A DNA stretch of 64,000 nucleotides, taken from contig NZ_CP096021.1 of assembly GCF_023115355.1 (NCBI RefSeq), positions 62,001 to 126,000 of the forward strand. The letters are read 5' to 3'. Source of the stretch: Halocatena salina (GTDB lineage: Archaea; Halobacteriota; Halobacteria; Halobacteriales; Haloarculaceae). Positions 35,813 to 62,540 of the stretch are shown piece by piece. The number at the start of each line of letters is the position of its first letter. Positions within the stretch are counted from its first letter, which is position 1. Position numbers and translations under genes: made by a program. Below the pieces are notes generated by a model. That model searched no databases, was not told where the DNA came from, and saw only the letters and a program-made list of their open reading frames with translations.

Positions 35813-36740
35813 TTATTCGATCGTATAGTTATCGAATCGACGGACTGCATCTCGATAGAGAAGGTAGCTGGATCCAACAGTAATAACGATCCAGCCAATG
35901 AGACCGCCTACTCGAATTCCATAAGAAGACAGTACGACGCTCCCAGCACTAAGGATCACGAGTACGTCTTGAATCGATGAAGAGATAAGCAACACCAGAA
36001 TCCCGATTCCCCCCAATACAGAGATGGATATCAAGTAAAGTCCAATAGCTATCAGACGTGGCCGAACAGCCTCGTGGCTCTGTCCAATTGTGGGTGCGTC
36101 AAAACGGGGAAAGCGAATCCCGATCGCTGGAGCACTTACAACCGTTGCGATAGTCAGGACAGCACCTATTATAACAAAGCCAATAGCACGATCCAACTGA
36201 TACGGACTGAAAAGCCCGCAAGTGCTGTTGTTATGATCGTGAGAGGAAGTCCATACAAGAGACCTGGAAGCATCACACCACGAATATACTGTACCCCTGA
36301 AACTGATGACGTTAGTGTTGCTGGCAGTGCAGCACCTTCGTCACCGAGAGGATTGAGTCCAAACACTGCTCCAACAAGTATGGGAAGACAAAATGAACAG
36401 AGCACTAGAACAACTGCCATTAGATTGTCCATCCGGACTGAGATCATCCCCGCATAAACACTAATAGAAATAAATATAATAATAAATGATGCCTTCCTGG
36501 GTGTGCGACGAAGACGCAACACAACTAACTGTGCAACACGTCTTGTTGGGACGTTTACGATGTATGGTATGGTGATCGGAGCGATGGCTGCTGCAAGCGT
36601 GTTAGTACCACGGTGCTGAAACTGGGAGGGTTCTGATTCCTGACGAGCAGCACCACGATCAGTTGCCCAGTAAGCAGTGGCGAGGCGAACGGAGAGAACT
36701 CCACCAACGAGACTACCAGTCGCACTCCGACCGTTCGGAG
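35813..36740 (-). pseudogene. ABC-2 permease-like gene, truncated and frameshifted
   Basis: Two reverse frames carry consecutive parts of one permease. The first (to 36169) has the segment LNPLGDEGAALPATLTSSVS and membrane helices (LPGLLYGLPLTIITTALAGF). The second (35813-36196) continues with AIGFVIIGAVLTIATVVSAP and PRFDAPTIGQSHEAV and three more helices. The frame change lies at about 36170-36196. The N-terminal half of the usual ~550-residue protein is absent, and the remaining piece abuts the end of the PPC-type gene. No ATPase gene is near. Confidence 0.65.
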
Positions 36741-50981: not shown

Positions 50982-51377
50982 CTATAGCCCTTCTAAGGCA
51001 CGGTCACGAACCGCTTCTCCCACTAACGCAAACTTGTCCGAGTCAGCTTGGCGAAGCCCCAACCGGAGCGCGAGCCGGACGAACTCGCTCTGCTCGATCG
51101 AGCCCTCAGCGTCGACGTCGAGCTGCCGGCGGAGCGACTCCCCGATCTTATCGCGCTGCTCGGGGTGCTCGGCAAGCGCACGGATGTACGCCGCTGCCGG
51201 GGCGTCCCAGATCGAGACGGTCTTCTGTTCTTCGCCCTCATCGATCCGCTCCAGTTCGTCGACGATCGCCTCTTTGAGTTCCTGCTGAGCGTCGTTATCC
51301 GCGTCCGAATCGATCCGATCTCCGTGCGACGTTTGGCGTTTGAGCTCGTCGAGATCGATGTCGTCTTCGTCGGGCAT
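50982..51377 (-). CDS. Small acidic protein downstream of parA, possible partition partner
   Basis: A 131-residue acidic protein. The N-terminal third is disordered and rich in Asp/Glu. The C-terminal part (KIGESLRRQLDVDAEGSIEQ, then VRLALRLGLRQA) is helical and could form a DNA-binding or ParA-contacting domain, but no known fold is evident. It starts three bases after parA ends, on the same strand, which is the usual place of the centromere-binding protein in a partition operon. That role is inferred from position and from the phased CTATAG repeats nearby. Confidence 0.6.
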   Translation of the reverse strand: MPDEDDIDLDELKRQTSHGDRIDSDADNDAQQELKEAIVDELERIDEGEEQKTVSIWDAPAAAYIRALAEHPEQRDKIGESLRRQLDVDAEGSIEQSEFVRLALRLGLRQADSDKFALVGEAVRDRALEGL

Positions 51378-51379
51378 GA

Positions 51380-52234
51380 TTAGTCCTCCAGTCGATCCAA
51401 GAGTGTTGACGCAGCACTCAGGTACGCCGACTGTGCTCTGTCGGCGGTCGTGGACGGTTCATCGATTGCGAAGGCTGTTTGACCGCTCTCAGTCGCGTTT
51501 CTGATATCCTGCGAGTATGGCACGTGCTCAGGCGCGATGCTCTCCGGGAATTTCTCTTCAAAGATCTCTAAGTAGTCCCGATCGAGCGTCCGACGGGTAT
51601 CAATTTTATTCGGCAACACCAGCGACAACGAAATCTCAACACCAAAGTTGTTCCCAATCTTCTCCAAATCGCGTTCGAGTTGCTCCGCCTGCCCATCCTC
51701 GAACGATCCGGGTTCGATCGGGACAACGACGTTTTTCGCCGCCCACAAGCCATTGTAACAGATGTTGTTACTCAGACCTGGGAGATCAATGAGTACTGCA
51801 TCGTACCCGAGCGGATCCACGTCTGAGTCCAGAAACCCATCAAGGCGGCTGTACCGGTCTCTCGCGTTGTCGATGTTGCCAAGATCGCCATCAAGCGAGT
51901 CTAAGCCCGGGTGAGCTGGAATGATATCTGGCCCTTCACCGGTGGCGAGGATCAAATCCTTCGTCGCCTGGTCACCGAGCTTTTTCTTGATCGTCCCCCA
52001 CGACTCATCGAAAACCGTAGCGATATTCGGCCAGGCGTCGTCGTCTGCAATCCGATCCTGATACTCCGACCAGACGCCAAAATGCTTGCTCAGATCGCCT
52101 TGTTTTCCGGCCAAATCCAGCAGCAAAACGTCCTTACCTTGCTCTTCGAGAGCCACCGCGAGGTGTGCTGTACTAGTTGTCTTTCCCACGCCACCTTTAT
52201 CCAGAAATGACGCGGCTCGGAGTGTCTTGCTCAT
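51380..52234 (-). CDS. parA: ParA/Soj-type partition ATPase
   Basis: A 284-residue ParA-family ATPase. The deviant Walker A is FLDKGGVGKTT (residues 10-20, with the signature Lys13 and catalytic Lys18). VLLLDLAGKQGD is Walker A-prime, and YDAVLIDLPGLS provides Walker B. No N-terminal HTH is present, so it is a type Ib-like or orphan ParA that does not bind its own operator by that route. The operon order is membrane protein, parA, small acidic protein. Three CTATAG palindromes at exact 12-bp steps lie 11-40 bp upstream of its start. Role: segregation of a replicon or positioning of a complex. Confidence 0.88.
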   Translation of the reverse strand: MSKTLRAASFLDKGGVGKTTSTAHLAVALEEQGKDVLLLDLAGKQGDLSKHFGVWSEYQDRIADDDAWPNIATVFDESWGTIKKKLGDQATKDLILATGEGPDIIPAHPGLDSLDGDLGNIDNARDRYSRLDGFLDSDVDPLGYDAVLIDLPGLSNNICYNGLWAAKNVVVPIEPGSFEDGQAEQLERDLEKIGNNFGVEISLSLVLPNKIDTRRTLDRDYLEIFEEKFPESIAPEHVPYSQDIRNATESGQTAFAIDEPSTTADRAQSAYLSAASTLLDRLED

Positions 52235-52236
52235 GA

Positions 52237-52635
52237 TTAGTATCCTATAGCGTTCGCTATAGTGATTCCTATAGCCATAAAGCTATCGAATAGTTGCTGA
52301 ATCCTCCGGTCGAACAAACAACCAGCGACGTCCGATCCCGCGATGGCTAGCCAGACGAGATACAACCCGGGGAGAACACCTGCTACTAGCGAAGTCATCG
52401 AGTCAGTCATTGATCCAGTGGCATTGCGAGCAGCGCGGAACACGGCCCGGACGACGATCATCGCCGAGAGGATTGCCAGTCCAAGCGCGAGCGCACGGAT
52501 CAACTCGCCATTGCCACCACACAAAACAGCCGTCGCTTCCGGGATGCCGACCGGACCGATCGGCAGGGCAGCCACAACACCCAGCTGCCGATCAATTGAT
52601 TGTGCGATTCGTCCGCTTCCGTCGTTCTGGCGCAT
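52237..52635 (-). CDS. Small membrane protein, first gene of the parA operon
   Basis: A 132-133-residue protein (ATG at 52638 or 52635). The N-terminus MRQNDGSGRIAQ is hydrophilic; three hydrophobic segments follow (GVVAALPIGPVGIP, ALALGLAILSAMIVVRAVF, LVAGVLPGLYLVWLAI). The stop is two bases before the parA ATG. Five CTATAG-type repeats lie 11-64 bp upstream of its start, and three lie in its last codons. A vestigial copy of its first 12 codons occurs at 55573-55610. A membrane partner for a ParA is uncommon and may tether the system. Function unknown. Confidence 0.65.
   Translation of the reverse strand: MRQNDGSGRIAQSIDRQLGVVAALPIGPVGIPEATAVLCGGNGELIRALALGLAILSAMIVVRAVFRAARNATGSMTDSMTSLVAGVLPGLYLVWLAIAGSDVAGCLFDRRIQQLFDSFMAIGITIANAIGY
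52245..52274. repeat. CTATAG iteron cluster 1 (3 copies, 12-bp period)
   Basis: Perfect palindromes CTATAG start at 52245, 52257 and 52269, exactly 12 bp apart, with unrelated 6-bp spacers. They lie just upstream of parA and inside the last codons of the membrane-protein gene. A half-match (CTATCG) follows at 52283, off phase. Likely protein-binding sites, either operator or centromere. Confidence 0.8.
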
Positions 52636-52645
52636 CATTACAACC

Positions 52646-52699
52646 CTATAGTATATACTATAGTGAATACTATAGTAGCTGCTACAGTTATTCCTATAG
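52646..52699. repeat. CTATAG iteron cluster 2 (5 units, 12-bp period)
   Basis: Units start at 52646, 52658, 52670, 52682 and 52694, all 12 bp apart; the fourth is CTACAG, the others CTATAG. The cluster lies directly upstream of the membrane-protein/parA operon and in the divergent region shared with tcmP. It is almost identical to cluster 4 at 55618-55671. Confidence 0.85.
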
Positions 52700-52758
52700 C
52701 CCGAAATCATCGATTATCGCCAGCGAAATCGAAAGGTGAAGCGAACGAACGTGCCGGG

Positions 52759-52807
52759 GCCTTAGTCAACAATCGGAGGAATATGGAGGAACAATGTTGA
52801 CTAAGGC
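52759..52807. repeat. Inverted repeat GCCTTAGTCAACA
   Basis: GCCTTAGTCAACA at 52759-52771 is followed by its exact reverse complement at 52795-52807, a 13-bp dyad with a 23-bp loop. A further single copy, GCCTTAGTCAAC, occurs at about 55728-55740 beside cluster 4. It could be a terminator, an operator or the arm of an element end. Confidence 0.7.
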
Positions 52808-52987
52808 AAAGAGAACAACTGGACACTAACGCGTGTAACCCCGCCATAGGAATAACAACAGCCCGGAAAGATATCCCAGGCAATGGGAGATCTAGTCCAT
52901 ATACCTTATCCGATTCGTACTGGCATCAATCATCGACCAATATAATATTCCTCCGTGAGGTTCTTTACTTCTTATGATTATACATAA

Positions 52988-54028
52988 ATGAATATGTCCA
53001 AAGGGCTGCTTGATAAAAATTGGATTAGCGACCAACTCGAGCGGTTTACAGCACATTCCGAGGCACTCATCGATCTCGCGCCCGATTCCGACACTGATCC
53101 CGACTACGGGCCGTTGACTGCACTCAAATTGTTTCTTATTGCCGCACAAGTCGATGTCTACACCAAAATCATCCCTAAACGGTTTGACCACACCTACTAC
53201 ATTGATGCTCTCGCTGGAAGCGGGCTCACTCACGTACGTGACTACGACGTTGCGATCGCCGGGTCACCACTCATCGCTGCGACTGTCTCCCATAAACCAC
53301 TGGAACGCTACTACTTCGTCGAGAAAGACCATAACCGGGCTAACGCCCTTGCAGCTCGGCTCGATTACTTGCATGACAACACCACTCTGTCTATCCCCCG
53401 TGATCGGTGCGAGATCCGGATCGGCGATGCGAATGACGAAATCCCGGCTATCATGGATGAGATTAAAGAACAGGGAGACGAATACGGGTTCGGTGGTGTA
53501 AACCGATGCGCTGTCGTCGATAACGAAGCCCTTGACTTCGAGTGGGATGCGCTCAAACAATTGCTCCAACCATGGGGCGATACCCTCATCAACTTCCCCG
53601 CGACTCGGATCAGCCGCGATCAAGGAAAACAAAAGCTCAAAGAAATCACCCGCTTCTTTGGATCCCCCGAGTGGGAACAGTGCAACTCGGAAAAGGCCTA
53701 TCGAGAGCTGTATACCAATCGGATCAAAGAGACGACATCGTATAACGTTAAACAACGTTCGATCAGAGTCGATAGCCGACCTGAAGCAAAACGTTACTAT
53801 TACGAACTCTTGTACACGACGCGTATTACTGGTAACGAAAGTCCCTACATCAAGGCTATAGACACAGAGAAACAGCGTCTCGAGCGACTTAGTGGGGCTG
53901 ACGTGGCAGCTATCCTTGATGTTCAGCACGGGGCTGAGCAAACGAATTTTCACTTCTTCGAAGAAGACACAGACACCGACACGGATGGGGCACAGCAGAC
54001 TCTCACTCGATATTCAGAAGAGCTATAG
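52988..54028 (+). CDS. tcmP: Three-Cys-motif partner protein TcmP
   Basis: A 346-residue protein matching the TcmP family, defined by its co-occurrence with three-cysteine radical-SAM (Gp37/Gp68-type) proteins. Recognisable parts are LKLFLIAAQVDVYTKIIPKR, YYIDALAGSGLT, AIAGSPLIAA and YFVEKDHNRANALAARL, which give a methyltransferase-like Rossmann start (D-A-x-A-G-S-G). A late acidic tail precedes the stop. The partner gene lies next to it, convergent, at 54077-55132. The biochemical role is not established. The stop codon lies inside the first CTATAG of cluster 3. The promoter side shares the divergent region with the parA operon. Confidence 0.8.
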   Translation: MNMSKGLLDKNWISDQLERFTAHSEALIDLAPDSDTDPDYGPLTALKLFLIAAQVDVYTKIIPKRFDHTYYIDALAGSGLTHVRDYDVAIAGSPLIAATVSHKPLERYYFVEKDHNRANALAARLDYLHDNTTLSIPRDRCEIRIGDANDEIPAIMDEIKEQGDEYGFGGVNRCAVVDNEALDFEWDALKQLLQPWGDTLINFPATRISRDQGKQKLKEITRFFGSPEWEQCNSEKAYRELYTNRIKETTSYNVKQRSIRVDSRPEAKRYYYELLYTTRITGNESPYIKAIDTEKQRLERLSGADVAAILDVQHGAEQTNFHFFEEDTDTDTDGAQQTLTRYSEEL

Positions 54029-54052
54029 CAACCTCTATAGCAGTTCCTATAG
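54023..54052. repeat. CTATAG iteron cluster 3 (3 copies, 12-bp period)
   Basis: CTATAG starts at 54023, 54035 and 54047, exactly 12 bp apart, spanning the end of tcmP and the gap to the convergent radical-SAM gene. The first copy contains the tcmP stop codon. Because it lies between two gene ends it cannot be a promoter operator for either, which favours a partition or structural role. Confidence 0.8.
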
Positions 54053-54076
54053 GATTAGATAGAAGGCGCTTAGCGC

Positions 54077-55132
54077 TTATGCCCACGTTCGAAGGTTCGG
54101 CTGCTCTAGCGACGGAGGCGATGTCGTCGGTGTCTCACGGTCGGCGAACCCTTCAGGGGATTGTCTGTTTCTCCATCCGCGTAACCAGTCTGCCACGTCC
54201 GTCGGGACGTGTTTTAGCAGCGATTTATCTGGCCACAGATGCACTGGCAGATCAAGTCCCTCACCGAGCTCCTGAACCCAGCGTAGCTGTGTGACGGCAT
54301 ACTCGGCCCACTGATCGCGATCTCGTAACCGCTCCAATTCCATCGCCAATTCATTCTGACCAGCCGCTTTCGCGGCCTGGACAGTCATCTGGAAATTGCC
54401 CGATCGGGGATTGATCGGTTCGTGGAAGATCACGGAGGGCTCGCATTCCGCAATTCGCTCTAACTGCTCGTGGAGGTCTGAACGGGACTGCGTTGGATAC
54501 GTCGGACTCAATGAAACGTAGGTGTTCACTCCCATCTCTGAGAACTCCTTTAGTCCTCTCAGACGGTGTTCTGGAGGAGGAGTGCGGGGTTCGATCGCAT
54601 GAACATGCTCTGCGTTCATACAAGGAATCGACGACCCAATCGTCACGTTCTCCCCTGCCTCAACGAAAACATCGGCATCTTGGAGTGCAAGAATCGGATT
54701 TCGAGTGAGTACCCGCGCATATCGATCGTGCTCAGCGAGTGACTGCACCACCTTACGCGTGATTTTTCCGGCGCGACCATCCATATAGCAGTCCGTCGCG
54801 AACGAGATCCCAACAATGCCACACCCCTGAGGCGTTCGCTTCCACGTTCGCTTCCGATTAAGGATACCATCAATCCGATCGATGATGCTGTCGCGGTAGA
54901 GAACGTACTGCCCCCATTCCCGTTGGGGCTGGTCAACGTCGGCATGCTCTTTGAGCATCTCGGGGCGAGCACGAATGTTCGGTGTACTTGGAACGTAGCA
55001 AAACTTACACCCGTGTTTGCAGCCGGTGGCGACGTTGATTACGTAGTCACAGAGGTGTTTACTGTGCAGCCCTGACTCACTCAACACCGCCTTCGTCGGG
55101 TCATCTCCTGTTGTGATTTCATTGCGTTTCAT
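54077..55132 (-). CDS. Radical-SAM protein with three-Cys motif (Gp37/Gp68 / DUF5131-like)
   Basis: A 351-residue radical-SAM protein. The cluster motif is Cys38, Cys42 and Cys45 in ATGCKHGCKFCYVPS, a C-x3-C-x2-C set. Further elements are GISFATDCYMDGRAG, ARVLTRNPILAL, VTIGSSIPCMNAEHV and IFHEPINPRSGN, the TIM-barrel strands of the spore-photoproduct-lyase/Gp37-Gp68-like group. Its family is the known partner of TcmP, and the two genes here are convergent with iteron cluster 3 between them. A nucleic-acid or peptide modification has been proposed for such pairs but is not proved. Confidence 0.85.
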   Translation of the reverse strand: MKRNEITTGDDPTKAVLSESGLHSKHLCDYVINVATGCKHGCKFCYVPSTPNIRARPEMLKEHADVDQPQREWGQYVLYRDSIIDRIDGILNRKRTWKRTPQGCGIVGISFATDCYMDGRAGKITRKVVQSLAEHDRYARVLTRNPILALQDADVFVEAGENVTIGSSIPCMNAEHVHAIEPRTPPPEHRLRGLKEFSEMGVNTYVSLSPTYPTQSRSDLHEQLERIAECEPSVIFHEPINPRSGNFQMTVQAAKAAGQNELAMELERLRDRDQWAEYAVTQLRWVQELGEGLDLPVHLWPDKSLLKHVPTDVADWLRGWRNRQSPEGFADRETPTTSPPSLEQPNLRTWA

Positions 55133-55572
55133 TGTGGGATATTACATATTAGAGCCATTAACTTCTCACTTGGATTGATGTGAAACGTATTGGTTATTAC
55201 ACTCTACTGCCAGCATCGTAATATTACCGCTAGTATCCCTATTTCGACTCTTAACAGAGGTCGAATGTTAGATATCGACATCACGAACACTCCAATTGAG
55301 CCTGTGTCGTTGCTGGCTCCGTCTCGAATGATGTCTGCCTCCTCGCTGGAGCAACCGGCGTCACCCCGATCACAGCCGTTCGCTGGTTCTCTTGCAGGGA
55401 TGCAACTGGACCAGCCATCGTCTCCTCACCGCGTTCGTACCGATTAGCTCGCTCGGATCAGCGAATCCGAACTATACGGTGATAAATGACAGCCACGGAA
55501 CCACTCCGACCGCTTACTCGAGCACCGACGCAACGTCGGGCGGTCCCACCACCCATCTGCCACCTATTTAAT
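55133..55572. other. Gap upstream of the radical-SAM gene
   Basis: Promoter region of the radical-SAM gene followed by unassigned sequence. A short reverse frame (about 55290-55405, 41 codons, MAGPVASLQENQRTAV) has no family match. Confidence 0.4.
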
Positions 55573-55610
55573 TATGCTATTCGTCCGTTTTCATTGTTCT
55601 GGTGTATCAT
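55573..55610 (-). pseudogene. Vestigial copy of the first 12 codons of the parA-operon membrane gene
   Basis: The reverse strand reads MIHQNNENGRIA and a stop, aligned with MRQNDGSGRIAQ at the start of the gene at 52237-52635. Its upstream DNA is a near copy of the iteron cluster in front of that gene. It marks a partial duplication of the operon's 5' end. Confidence 0.65.
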
Positions 55611-55617
55611 TGCATCC

Positions 55618-55671
55618 CTATATCATATACTATAGTATTCACTATAGTAGCTGCTACAGTTATTCCTATAG
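55618..55671. repeat. CTATAG iteron cluster 4 (5 units, 12-bp period)
   Basis: Units start at 55618 (CTATAT), 55630, 55642, 55654 (CTACAG) and 55666, each 12 bp apart. Order and spacers match cluster 2 (both end CTACAGTTATTCCTATAGCC), including the same CTACAG variant at unit four. It stands in the same orientation as cluster 2, about 3 kb away. Confidence 0.85.
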
Positions 55672-55866
55672 CCCGAGTTATCGACAATCCACATCGAAAT
55701 CAGGGCGCGAGGCGAACGGATCGTTAGGCCTTAGTCAACGATCAGGGAGAGAAAGAGGATATTGGACTCTCCCGATTCTAATGAAACACCTATACGAATA
55801 GTGAGTGCCAGACCCACAGGTGAGGGGTCACAAACGACTTAATAGGTGCCTGTGACAAACGACGTA
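55672..55866. other. Continuation of the duplicated segment, then HAD gene leader
   Basis: Similarity to the flank of cluster 2 continues in patches to the GGCCTTAGTCAAC box at about 55728-55740. The rest leads to the HAD gene; no further feature. Confidence 0.4.
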
Positions 55867-58540: not shown

Positions 58541-59032
58541 TCACGAGGTCGGCATGACGGCGATCTCCAGCCCCCAATGCTTTGCACACTCAACGATGTC
58601 AAACCAGCCGTTGCGCTGGCTTTGCTCGGGGTCTGCTGTCTTCGAGACCGACTGAATTTCAGGATGATACACGTGTATTGAGAAGATAGCAGGCTCACCG
58701 TCTTCATCAAGCCAGAGGGAAGCGTGATCCGAGTGCGGGGGCTTGTGTGGTGGCCTCTCGCCCTTTCCCACCGTTTCGAGTTCCCGATCGATCCAGGAGC
58801 GGTCACACGAACACTCGTCTTCTCCCGTGATTAGCCGTCGGAAGCATGGTTTCTCTGCCTGTTCATCAACCTTCCAAGCGTTCTTGAATCGCTCTCTCAA
58901 TTCGTCTTCGAGTGCATCAGCGATCGCTCGCCGGACACCCTCCCCCGGTTCCTGATCGTCGTCAGCGTACTCCTGCACGGTGGAAACGAATGCTTGGTAT
59001 GCAGGACTCAGGGAGCGATTGAAGCGGCTCAT
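58541..59032 (-). CDS. Hypothetical acidic protein
   Basis: A 163-residue acidic protein with no recognised domain. It starts SRFNRSLSPAYQAFVSTVQE, has a helical region (IADALEDELRERFKNAWKV), three or four cysteines (CFRRLITGEDECSCDRSW) and a C-terminal part with HASLWLDEDGEPAIFSIHVY. The codon use and acidity are normal for a haloarchaeal gene. It lies between the toxin gene and the trailer end of the CRISPR array but shows no Cas signature. Confidence 0.6.
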   Translation of the reverse strand: MSRFNRSLSPAYQAFVSTVQEYADDDQEPGEGVRRAIADALEDELRERFKNAWKVDEQAEKPCFRRLITGEDECSCDRSWIDRELETVGKGERPPHKPPHSDHASLWLDEDGEPAIFSIHVYHPEIQSVSKTADPEQSQRNGWFDIVECAKHWGLEIAVMPTS

Positions 59033-59320
59033 GCGCCGTTTCGACGGTCTAGCTGACTATGGTTGTTGTGACAATCCAAAAACAACGGAAGTGAGGGGTG
59101 TGATCGTTGTGCTCTCGGGTGATTTTCTGTTTGCAGATGGGGTGTCGTCGGTGCGATCGGTTGGTACTCTCTCAGGCACCACTGGAACCGGTGGTGTGGT
59201 ATCGTCGCGTAGTCCGTTGATTTTTCACTCGAAATTCGGTGTGTCCTCTCCTCGCGCTCGGGCAATGTGCCTCCAGCCCCCGAGTGAGAATCGGTCCCAG
59301 TGTGGGGTAACTCCCGGCCC
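59033..59320. other. Gap, nothing recognised
   Basis: No gene, no repeat. Short forward frames lack motifs. Confidence 0.4.
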
Positions 59321-59557
59321 TTACTCATCGACGAGTTCGCTTTCGCCACGATACTGCACCTCGTCGGTGTCCTGTTCCCACATCCAGAGGGAGAGACATT
59401 TACAGGAGTACTCGACGGCGATGGGGTCGCTGTCTCCGTCATGGATGACCGCCTGTCCGTGGAGTTGTCGTCCGCAGTTTGGGTAGTCATGCCAGTCCTT
59501 GGGGGATGCACCTCTAGGGAACGGTCGTGCCCCCGCCCACTGGGCTGATGGGGCGCT
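59321..59557 (-). pseudogene. 5'-truncated zinc-ribbon-like protein fragment
   Basis: The reverse strand reads DWHDYPNCGRQLHGQAVIHD, then DSDPIAVEYSCKCLSLWMWE and ends with ESELVDE and a stop at 59321-59323. The C-x-x/C-x-C pattern and strand spacing look like a small zinc-binding protein. The frame is closed upstream by a TGA at 59558-59560 inside a fossil CRISPR repeat, and no ATG, GTG or TTG lies in frame. The 5' end was lost at the array border. Confidence 0.5.
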
Positions 59558-59584
59558 TCAACACCAGCTTGGTACTTCTGAAAC
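59555..59584 (-). repeat. Fossil CRISPR repeat at the trailer end
   Basis: These 30 bases match the array consensus at 23 of 30 positions, with both ends intact (GCTTCAAC and CTGAAAC on the forward strand). The distance to the next repeat is 34 bp, a normal spacer length. It is a decayed, probably inactive, oldest unit of the array. Confidence 0.65.
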
Positions 59585-59618
59585 GCCATGTCGATCCGCG
59601 AGGGCGATCGACTATCAG

Positions 59619-62540
59619 ACCTCAACCCCACAAGAGTCCGTCTGAAACTCCGTGCATCACTCGGTTTTCGTCGAGTGGGATCGGCTTCAACCCCACAAGG
59701 GTCCGTCTGAAACAGGGATTGGGCAGATAAACGCTGTCCTGAAAATAACGCTTCAACCCCACAAGGGTCCGTCTGAAACCACTCGGCCCTCGAGTCGGCG
59801 ACCTATTCCGAGGACGCTTCAACCCCACAAGGGTCCGTCTGAAACTGGCCGAGAACATGTGTTTCGCGGTGGGTTCGTAGTAGCTTCAACCCCACAAGGG
59901 TCCGTCTGAAACGAGGATCTCAACCGCCATCCAACCGATCGCAAAGCTTCAACCCCACAAGGGTCCGTCTGAAACCGGACTCCTCGACGCCGTCGCATAG
60001 CAACCGAGAACTGCTTCAACCCCACAAGGGTCCGTCTGAAACTGGGAAGTGTTTTCCGGACACCATCCAATAGCAGTTGCTTCAACCCCACAAGGGTCCG
60101 TCTGAAACATTGCGGGCCGTAGACATTGGTGTGACGAAGCATACGCTTCAACCCCACAAGGGTCCGTCTGAAACCGACGACGATCTCGATGACTGGGACG
60201 AGATCGAGGTGGCTTCAACCCCACAAGGGTCCGTCTGAAACTTGTTGTTCGGGGTCTAAGACCAATGCGAGCCAGAGTCTTCAACCCCACAAGGGTCCGT
60301 CTGAAACCGGCGAGTACGACGCCGGGGGGATTTCGTTCGAGACTCTTCAACCCCACAAGGGTCCGTCTGAAACTACGTGACCACACTCCGGGCACGTCCG
60401 ATGTTCATTCTTCAACCCCACAAGGGTCCGTCTGAAACGCGCGAGACGTTCAAATCATCTGCCAAATTTGCGGTCTTCAACCCCACAAGGGTCCGTCTGA
60501 AACACGTGAACGCCCCCCATGCCCCCCGAGCCCAGTTCATTCTTCAACCCCACAAGGGTCCGTCTGAAACGCGCGCCTCTGTGTCGCTCTCCTGCTCGAC
60601 GGAGATCTTCAACCCCACAAGGGTCCGTCTGAAACTCAAGATCATCCAGATCGTCTGCGTCCATGCTACCGTTCTTCAACCCCACAAGGGTCCGTCTGAA
60701 ACCGACGGCGGAGATGTCCGCGAGTGCATCGTCTCGAATCTTCAACCCCACAAGGGTCCGTCTGAAACGCGTGCACGCAGTGGCGTCGAGTCGCCCAGAT
60801 CTCTTCAACCCCACAAGGGTCCGTCTGAAACTCGATGAGGCGGCACTGGTCGAGGACGGCGTCTATGATCTTCAACCCCACAAGGGTCCGTCTGAAACGA
60901 GGCGACCAGCGATGAGTAGCGTCTCGTTCAGCTGTCTTCAACCCCACAAGGGTCCGTCTGAAACCGTTGTATGGTTCTTGGCTCCCGTCTCGATCCCGGC
61001 TCTTCAACCCCACAAGGGTCCGTCTGAAACTCGCAACCGGTATCGGACCGACAGGGGAGATCACCTCTTCAACCCCACAAGGGTCCGTCTGAAACTGAAC
61101 GTTCCAGTTGTCTTCGGTGCAAACTCGTGAATCTTCAACCCCACAAGGGTCCGTCTGAAACGTGGCAGCGCGTTCTTCGTTCGCCGCGTAGACGCGTCTT
61201 CAACCCCACAAGGGTCCGTCTGAAACCGTGTTTCTCGCCGTAGCCGTCGCCAGCGTACAGCTCTTCAACCCCACAAGGGTCCGTCTGAAACCTCCGGAGG
61301 ATGTTATCGATGGGAGGGACATTGAATTCTTCAACCCCACAAGGGTCCGTCTGAAACTTGCGGGCACCGATGCCTGCGCTGCCGATTCGTGCGATCTTCA
61401 ACCCCACAAGGGTCCGTCTGAAACCCGTGGCTCGGCTATGCTCAGGACCGAGGGCGCATCACTTCAACCCCACAAGGGTCCGTCTGAAACGCGTTTCAAA
61501 TGGACCTCCTTGCCGTTCTTGCACGACTTCAACCCCACAAGGGTCCGTCTGAAACCTGTTCGGCTGTGAGACTCACCGCGATTCTCTCGCTACTTCAACC
61601 CCACAAGGGTCCGTCTGAAACTTGGTCTGCATCGCAGTCCGGATCGCGGGGAGCATACTTCAACCCCACAAGGGTCCGTCTGAAACGAGGGAGGGAAGAT
61701 GGGGAGGGTGTTCTGATGGCCACTTCAACCCCACAAGGGTCCGTCTGAAACAGCGCGCCCACGAGCATGGCTATTCGATCACGTCCCACTTCAACCCCAC
61801 AAGGGTCCGTCTGAAACGTAGATGTTGATGTACTCGGCGACCGATTCGAGCGCACTTCAACCCCACAAGGGTCCGTCTGAAACTTGATCTTCTTGAGCGA
61901 TTAGGGATGTCGCTTAGAACTTCAACCCCACAAGGGTCCGTCTGAAACCACGTGCTTCACGAGTCCACCCTTCACCCTGGGGGCGACTTCAACCCCACAA
62001 GGGTCCGTCTGAAACCAATGCCAGACGCCCTTGATGCTCTCATAGGAGTCACTTCAACCCCACAAGGGTCCGTCTGAAACTCGGTGTTGCCTCCCTCGTC
62101 GATATAGGCGCGCGACTTCAACCCCACAAGGGTCCGTCTGAAACCATGTCCATGCCTCCGGTAAGTCTTCGTCCTCTCACTTCAACCCCACAAGGGTCCG
62201 TCTGAAACTCGACGAAGGGGTACTTCCTCATCGAACAACAGACAACTTCAACCCCACAAGGGTCCGTCTGAAACAACGCATGGGGGTGCGCACGCGTCGA
62301 CGACGGTCCCACTTCAACCCCACAAGGGTCCGTCTGAAACAAACGGCACTATGCGCTGCCGAGTCGAGGCAACCAAGGACTTCAACCCCACAAGGGTCCG
62401 TCTGAAACAAGATTTATGGGGTTGTGGAATAGTGTGTTTGTTGAGACTTCAACCCCACAAGGGTCCGTCTGAAACGCGATGCGGCAGGGGATGTCGCTGA
62501 GATGGGTGATACTTCAACCCCACAAGGGTCCGTCTGAAAC
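59619..62540 (-). CRISPR. Type I-B CRISPR array, 45 repeats and 44 spacers
   Basis: Repeats are 30 bp. In transcribed (reverse) orientation they begin GTTTCAGACGGACCCTTGTG and end GGGTTGAAG plus one variable base. Spacers are mostly 33-38 bp. The first repeat by coordinate (59619-59648) has three changes, as expected at the trailer end; the last (62511-62540) is perfect and adjoins the leader. The final repeat base falls in blocks: C in repeats 2-10 (59684-60241), A in 11-28 (60278-61424), T in 29-45 (61461-62540). The repeat resembles known Haloferax type I-B repeats. Transcription is inferred toward lower coordinates, the same direction as cas2 and cas1. No spacer was seen to match this window. 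Confidence 0.97.

Follow-up and report, generated by a model that had tools for sequence, protein, structure and literature searches.

Phased six-base repeats beside parA as candidate centromeres of haloarchaeal plasmids

Among bacterial partition systems of type Ib, plasmid pSM19035 encodes delta (ParA) and omega, a ribbon-helix-helix (RHH) ParB, and its parS repeats overlap the promoters of the partition genes (PMC9499535). In Sulfolobales and other archaea, SegAB consists of a ParA-type ATPase and a DNA-binding protein of the RHH type, with sites upstream of the operon (PMC12284271), and AspA-ParBA of the Sulfolobus plasmid pNOB8 uses AspA, a winged helix-turn-helix protein, together with one 23-bp palindrome and a separate ParB that is needed (PMC5120986). 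A 2025 survey found chromosomal ParABS to be generally absent in archaea (PMC12704722). Here we analyzed a 64,000-nucleotide stretch of Halocatena salina DNA (the window; NZ_CP096021.1), in which a parA operon is accompanied by four clusters of the palindrome CTATAG repeated every 12 bp. We consider it likely, from sequence comparison, that these clusters are parS arrays for a ParB-like protein encoded behind parA and double as operators. The system is probably a new, archaeal form of type Ib ParABS with an RHH partner, and its mode of action would resemble that of omega/parS of pSM19035.

Phased arrays around the parA operon of the window

The window covers positions 62001-126000 of a 415,306-bp contig (C3) in a genome of five contigs and 4,012,255 bp (4.01 Mb). 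The pattern CTATAGN6CTATAG, with up to two mismatches, was matched 17 times in the window, compared with 0.69 ± 0.83 matches (maximum 3) in dinucleotide shuffles. Genome-wide, there were seven exact CTATAG-N6-CTATAG pairs, all inside the four clusters, and three one-mismatch pairs on contig C2 were taken as chance. The operon and its arrays are laid out as follows.

50982..50987, no strand: single CTATAG covering the parB stop codon, where relatives have a full array
50982..51377, minus strand: parB-like gene, 131 aa, pI 4.3, whose acidic, RHH-like product is the proposed reader of the arrays
51380..52234, minus strand: parA, 284 aa, with a deviant Walker A motif (KGGVGKT) near the N-terminus and without an N-terminal helix-turn-helix (HTH)
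52237..52638, minus strand: gene of a small hydrophobic protein, first of the operon, kept ahead of parA in Actinarchaeum halophilum plasmid 3
52245..52274, no strand: array 1, three exact CTATAG sites at 12 bp (52245/57/69), ending 10 bp from the parA start codon
52646..52699, no strand: array 2, five sites at 12 bp, 7 bp ahead of the first operon gene
54023..54052, no strand: array 3, three exact sites (54023/35/47) in the gap between tcmP and a radical SAM gene, whose ends converge there
55574..55740, no strand: diverged duplicate of the array 2 region, containing a stub of the first operon gene
55618..55671, no strand: array 4, five sites, three of them exact, within this duplicate

All 16 site positions listed in a preliminary description of the window were present, as were the cluster between convergent gene ends (array 3) and the one ahead of a mere stub (array 4) that it had reported. 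In array 2, the sites at 52646/58/70 and 52694 are exact and that at 52682 reads CTACAG; in array 4, those at 55630/42 and 55666 are exact, with CTATAT at 55618 and CTACAG at 55654. The 6-bp fillers had been described as unlike one another and indeed vary from site to site, which argues that the arrays are not products of slippage. Arrays 2 and 4 (52646-52699 and 55618-55671) are near-identical except for one inverted filler, TGAATA versus TATTCA, which resembles the flip of a piece between two palindromes.

The ParA protein itself fits type Ib: KGGVGKT starts 12 residues after the start codon and no N-terminal HTH precedes it. It matches AAA_31/CbiA, and Soj/ParA is among its nearest solved relatives. 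The neighboring tcmP was assigned to TIGR04474. Apart from the operon, the window holds a CRISPR array at 59600-60965 and beyond, with about 21 copies of CTTCAACCCCACAAGGGTCCGTCTGAAAC at a spacing of 63-67 bp (counted within 59000-61000).

A second member of the same family lies on this replicon (locus L209, G000:C3:1-1400, that is, C3:0.1-1.4 kb), comprising parAB with a TxR strand (lettering explained below) and TTCGAA at multiples of 13 bp. Its parAB is about 13 kb from two orc1/cdc6 genes (C3:14.4-17.9 kb), which are about 96 kb from the arrays studied here (C3:114-118 kb). The 415-kb replicon has two par copies of different word and phase (CTATAG/12 and TTCGAA at multiples of 13), which suggests a cointegrate or captured plasmid.

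Linkage, phasing and placement in relatives

Relatives of the 131-aa protein were found on 22 sequenced haloarchaeal plasmids, annotated as "hypothetical protein". A family profile matched 80 of 391 Halobacteria species at 97 places, and parA was directly upstream of parB in 103 of 109 recovered reading frames, the type Ib arrangement of a small partner gene right behind parA. A scan of genome contigs with the single protein gave no ParB match, and one alignment (A1) was discarded for too low conservation; a narrower alignment recovered 10 loci in genome contigs. One family locus (L231) is on a contig of Halobacterium salinarum DSM 3754. No ParB was found in viral contigs, searched with two alignments, or in phage records. 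Matches to WD-repeat proteins (Tako8 and others) in a search of PDB sequences came from a short strand-like stretch and were rejected as repeat matches without family meaning.

In six close ParB relatives (about 52-65% identity), each locus has several CTATAG/12 arrays, and this combination ranked first in each of them in a de novo scan of 64 six-base palindromes at 17 periods (8-24). When six whole plasmids were scanned, 45 of the 52 exact pairs fell no farther than about 7 kb from parAB, and the reversed control gave no match. Exact triplets occurred in 5 of 391 Halobacteria genomes, and the reversed control matched one genome. The preliminary description had proposed that a genome scan with equally common runs away from parA would refute its reading; in the H. 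salina genome and the six plasmids, the arrays concentrate at parAB, and the linkage to ParA and the 131-residue protein for which it had asked was found. Distal exceptions lie ahead of an orc1/cdc6 gene, in convergent gene gaps of two other plasmids, and ahead of a toxin-antitoxin operon in A. halophilum plasmid 3. The first of these, an isolated CTATAG triplet at 36091-36120 of NZ_CP110251.1, about 0.84 kb ahead of orc1/cdc6 and 118 kb from parAB, may be an additional centromere site or may connect the system with the control of replication.

For 90 distinct loci, we then measured six-base identities in two flanks of 400 bp each, one ahead of parA and one behind parB. Lag 12 gave 328 identities against 23.5 ± 5.7 (z = 54), with further peaks at 24, 36 and 48, and a second series at 13, 26 and 39 (lag 13, z = 20) belonged to other branches. 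Per 10 kb, lag 12 reached 48 in the flanks versus 10 in regions 1-1.4 kb away, and lag 13 reached 24 versus 5.6. Within the parA coding sequence, lag 12 was less pronounced, at 19 per 10 kb, as expected from codon phase and shared ancestry, and lag 13 was low, at 3.2. Downstream of parB, two loci (L179 and L212) have near-perfect tandem repeats of iteron-like look, with GTTTGCGCTTAC about five times at 12 bp and a CCTGTAATTG-type unit at 13 bp.

Some of the arrays also have a fixed placement. In the CTATAG class (25 loci), the most frequent end point of the upstream array is 10 bp ahead of parA (13/25), a fixed register that corresponds to the repeat-array centromere at the partition promoter of type Ib systems. 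In 17/25, the downstream array begins 3 bp ahead of the parB stop, whose TAG is then supplied by CTATAG. The window keeps CTATAG at its own parB stop without phased partners, and its first array 3 site (54023-54028) forms the stop codon of tcmP, in both cases with the register CTA-TAG. In 55 of 90 loci (e.g. L023, L024, L025, L026, L029 and L030), the coding strand additionally carries the motif GTCTGAC between -71 and -41 relative to parA, just before a TATA-like region; about 2 loci were naively expected, and the reverse complement gave 1 and the downstream flank 8. Common to subfamilies of differing word, GTCTGAC is an unexplained conserved promoter element.

These positions bear on whether the arrays are transcriptional operators only, with ParB controlling parAB and a few genes and partition using another site. 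Arrays about 10 bp ahead of parA in the majority of loci, before the first operon gene in the window and ahead of the toxin-antitoxin operon noted above all fit such a role, but arrays also lie between convergent gene ends, where no promoter is expected (array 3 and two other plasmids), and over the parB stop. Moreover, in Halocatena, ten arrays occupy a 3-kb stretch without annotated genes, a count to be read with caution because the plasmid gene table is incomplete. We therefore regard a purely operator role as unlikely. The preliminary description had called the layout a centromere or iteron set rather than a simple operator: the centromere part is supported, and an operator function in addition is probable, since one array lies just before the parA start in most loci, as in other RHH partition systems (PMC9499535).

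An origin by chance or mutation, in which slippage or recombination had multiplied functionless short repeats, would fit the duplication that gave rise to array 4. It would also fit CTATAG triplets in IMG/VR, where a scan returned 66 stretches with no ParB in the fetched stretches or in 14 whole records; these triplets were treated as unrelated or chance. The shuffle, genome, class and lag statistics, the fixed placement and the covariation with the protein described below make this origin scarcely credible.

Repeat words and the candidate reader

RHH proteins insert a strand element into the DNA major groove. The repeated words vary by branch of the ParB tree (CTATAG, GTTTNC, TATACG, TGTATC and others), and we assigned loci to seven fixed word classes and compared these with ParB residues 55 and 57, which are alternate positions of the predicted DNA-reading strand KTVSIWD. 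SxW proteins accompanied CTATAG/12 in 25 of 31 loci (2 TATGGA/12, 4 unassigned), and all 17 AxR proteins accompanied GTTTNC/12. For SxR and TxR, TATACG/12 (7/14) and TGTATC/13 (11/16) were found, respectively, with the rest unassigned. No assigned locus of these four protein types fell into another of the four main classes. Among 391 genomes, a single one contained an exact TGTATC/13 triplet, located 98 bp downstream of a parB of TxR type. Residue 55 ranked first among ParB columns for word-class information, and the pair 55+57 was first of 7,750 column pairs (0.93; next 0.79) and exceeded all 38,503 ParA pairs (best 0.76), a ranking that served as the control for the inflation of these scores by shared ancestry.

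A held-out set of 18 further loci, taken after the rule had been seen, contained 14 new ones, which were all in agreement, some weakly. Four KTFAARD loci had GTTTNC/12, a KTLSLRD locus had TATACG/12 as top class, and two KTVSFWD loci had CTATAG/12 as top class, one weakly. Four SNITVRD loci carried words of CTGTAT, CTGAAT or TGTATA type at 13 or 26 bp, and three loci with Y at position 57, hardly sampled before, had 13-bp ATATAG or ATCTAT arrays. These patterns may reflect one haloarchaeal partition family that keeps the 12- or 13-bp phasing and has its word set by ParB residues 55 (S/A/T/N) and 57 (W/R/Y); whether this amounts to a two-residue code defining natural plasmid compatibility groups is, in our judgment, evenly balanced.

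The covariation also bears on whether another protein binds the arrays, such as ParA, a host regulator or a replication initiator acting on iterons or origin boxes. ParA is linked equally, one distal triplet precedes orc1/cdc6, and some relatives have iteron-like tandem repeats. Against such a binder, the word class follows ParB 55+57 more closely than any ParA pair, and the word differs between plasmids, as it would not for a host protein. No initiator adjoins the arrays of the window, as it would for iterons or Orc boxes, the orc1/cdc6 genes of C3 being about 96 kb away. This explanation thus appears quite improbable. The preliminary description had guessed that the small acidic protein after parA is the binder, and linkage, a weak RHH signature and the covariation of strand residues with the word support it.

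No Pfam or NCBIfam family fits the 131-aa protein. An hhalign comparison with haloarchaeal RHH_1 proteins scored 11.2, while 30 shuffles reached 7.0 at most, and aligned strand on strand and last helix on last helix across a 22-residue insert. An RHH fold is probable. The conserved N-terminal stretch DLEELRxQTxxGDRL could be the tail that contacts ParA, if the analogy to other partition proteins of the RHH type applies.

The inflation of covariation scores by shared ancestry weighs against our proposal, as do several other observations. Pfam RHH_1 matched the protein at E 0.034 or worse only. AlphaFold2, which as a single chain cannot display the intermolecular strand pair of an RHH dimer, gave a model (pLDDT 71) with helices in the C-terminal two thirds, an ill-defined N-terminus and no strand; Foldseek with this model found no match, so the RHH fold was not confirmed. 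Several loci lack a recognizable word, and in one genome (G338) a triplet lies near a contig end with no parA or parB found nearby.

If the 131-aa protein reads the arrays as we propose, each 6-bp word would serve as the core site for a single ParB dimer, and the phase of 12 bp would set neighboring dimers side by side in a short cooperative assembly, most often of three. Several arrays occupied by ParB would make up a partition complex; this complex would engage the ParA ATPase and drive the replicon towards the two daughter cells. Where an array lies just ahead of the start of parA or of the operon, bound ParB would in addition block transcription, giving autoregulation of the operon.

Comparison with described partition systems

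The analysis provides, at the sequence level, a candidate centromere and a candidate reader for about one fifth of the sampled haloarchaeal species, and makes binding, specificity swaps and plasmid stability directly testable. The ParB family, its arrays and a compatibility typing scheme could enter annotation, where the protein is now only hypothetical. No haloarchaeal plasmid centromere of this form was found in the open-access literature, subscription papers being mostly outside the search, and we regard the novelty of this phased-palindrome centromere as provisional.

As in canonical ParABS, the system would combine ParA, a site-specific partner and a cis site, but the partner is without a ParB-CTPase domain: none of 21 family members had a Pfam or NCBIfam ParB match. 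It resembles AspA-ParBA of pNOB8 as an archaeal plasmid partition system with ParA and a predicted site-specific DNA binder, whereas neither an AspA-type winged helix-turn-helix protein nor a separate ParB is present here. With SegAB, it shares an archaeal ParA-type ATPase, a (here predicted) RHH partner and operon-upstream sites. The SegB motif is, however, a 13-bp palindrome, TCTAGA-S-TCTAGA, scattered on chromosomes (PMC12284271); it occurred neither in the window nor in any of the 90 locus flanks, so that by motif the system is not SegAB.

The closest likeness is to pSM19035, which likewise has ParA with a small partner and several arrays of phased short repeats per plasmid, placed at partition promoters (PMC9499535). 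The omega repeats are non-palindromic 7-bp heptads, 7-10 per site (PMC9499535), whereas the haloarchaeal arrays consist of 6-bp words at 12 or 13 bp, mostly three per array and palindromic in the CTATAG class. Compared with omega, the haloarchaeal ParB has a longer insert between helices, no detectable sequence similarity and an archaeal host.

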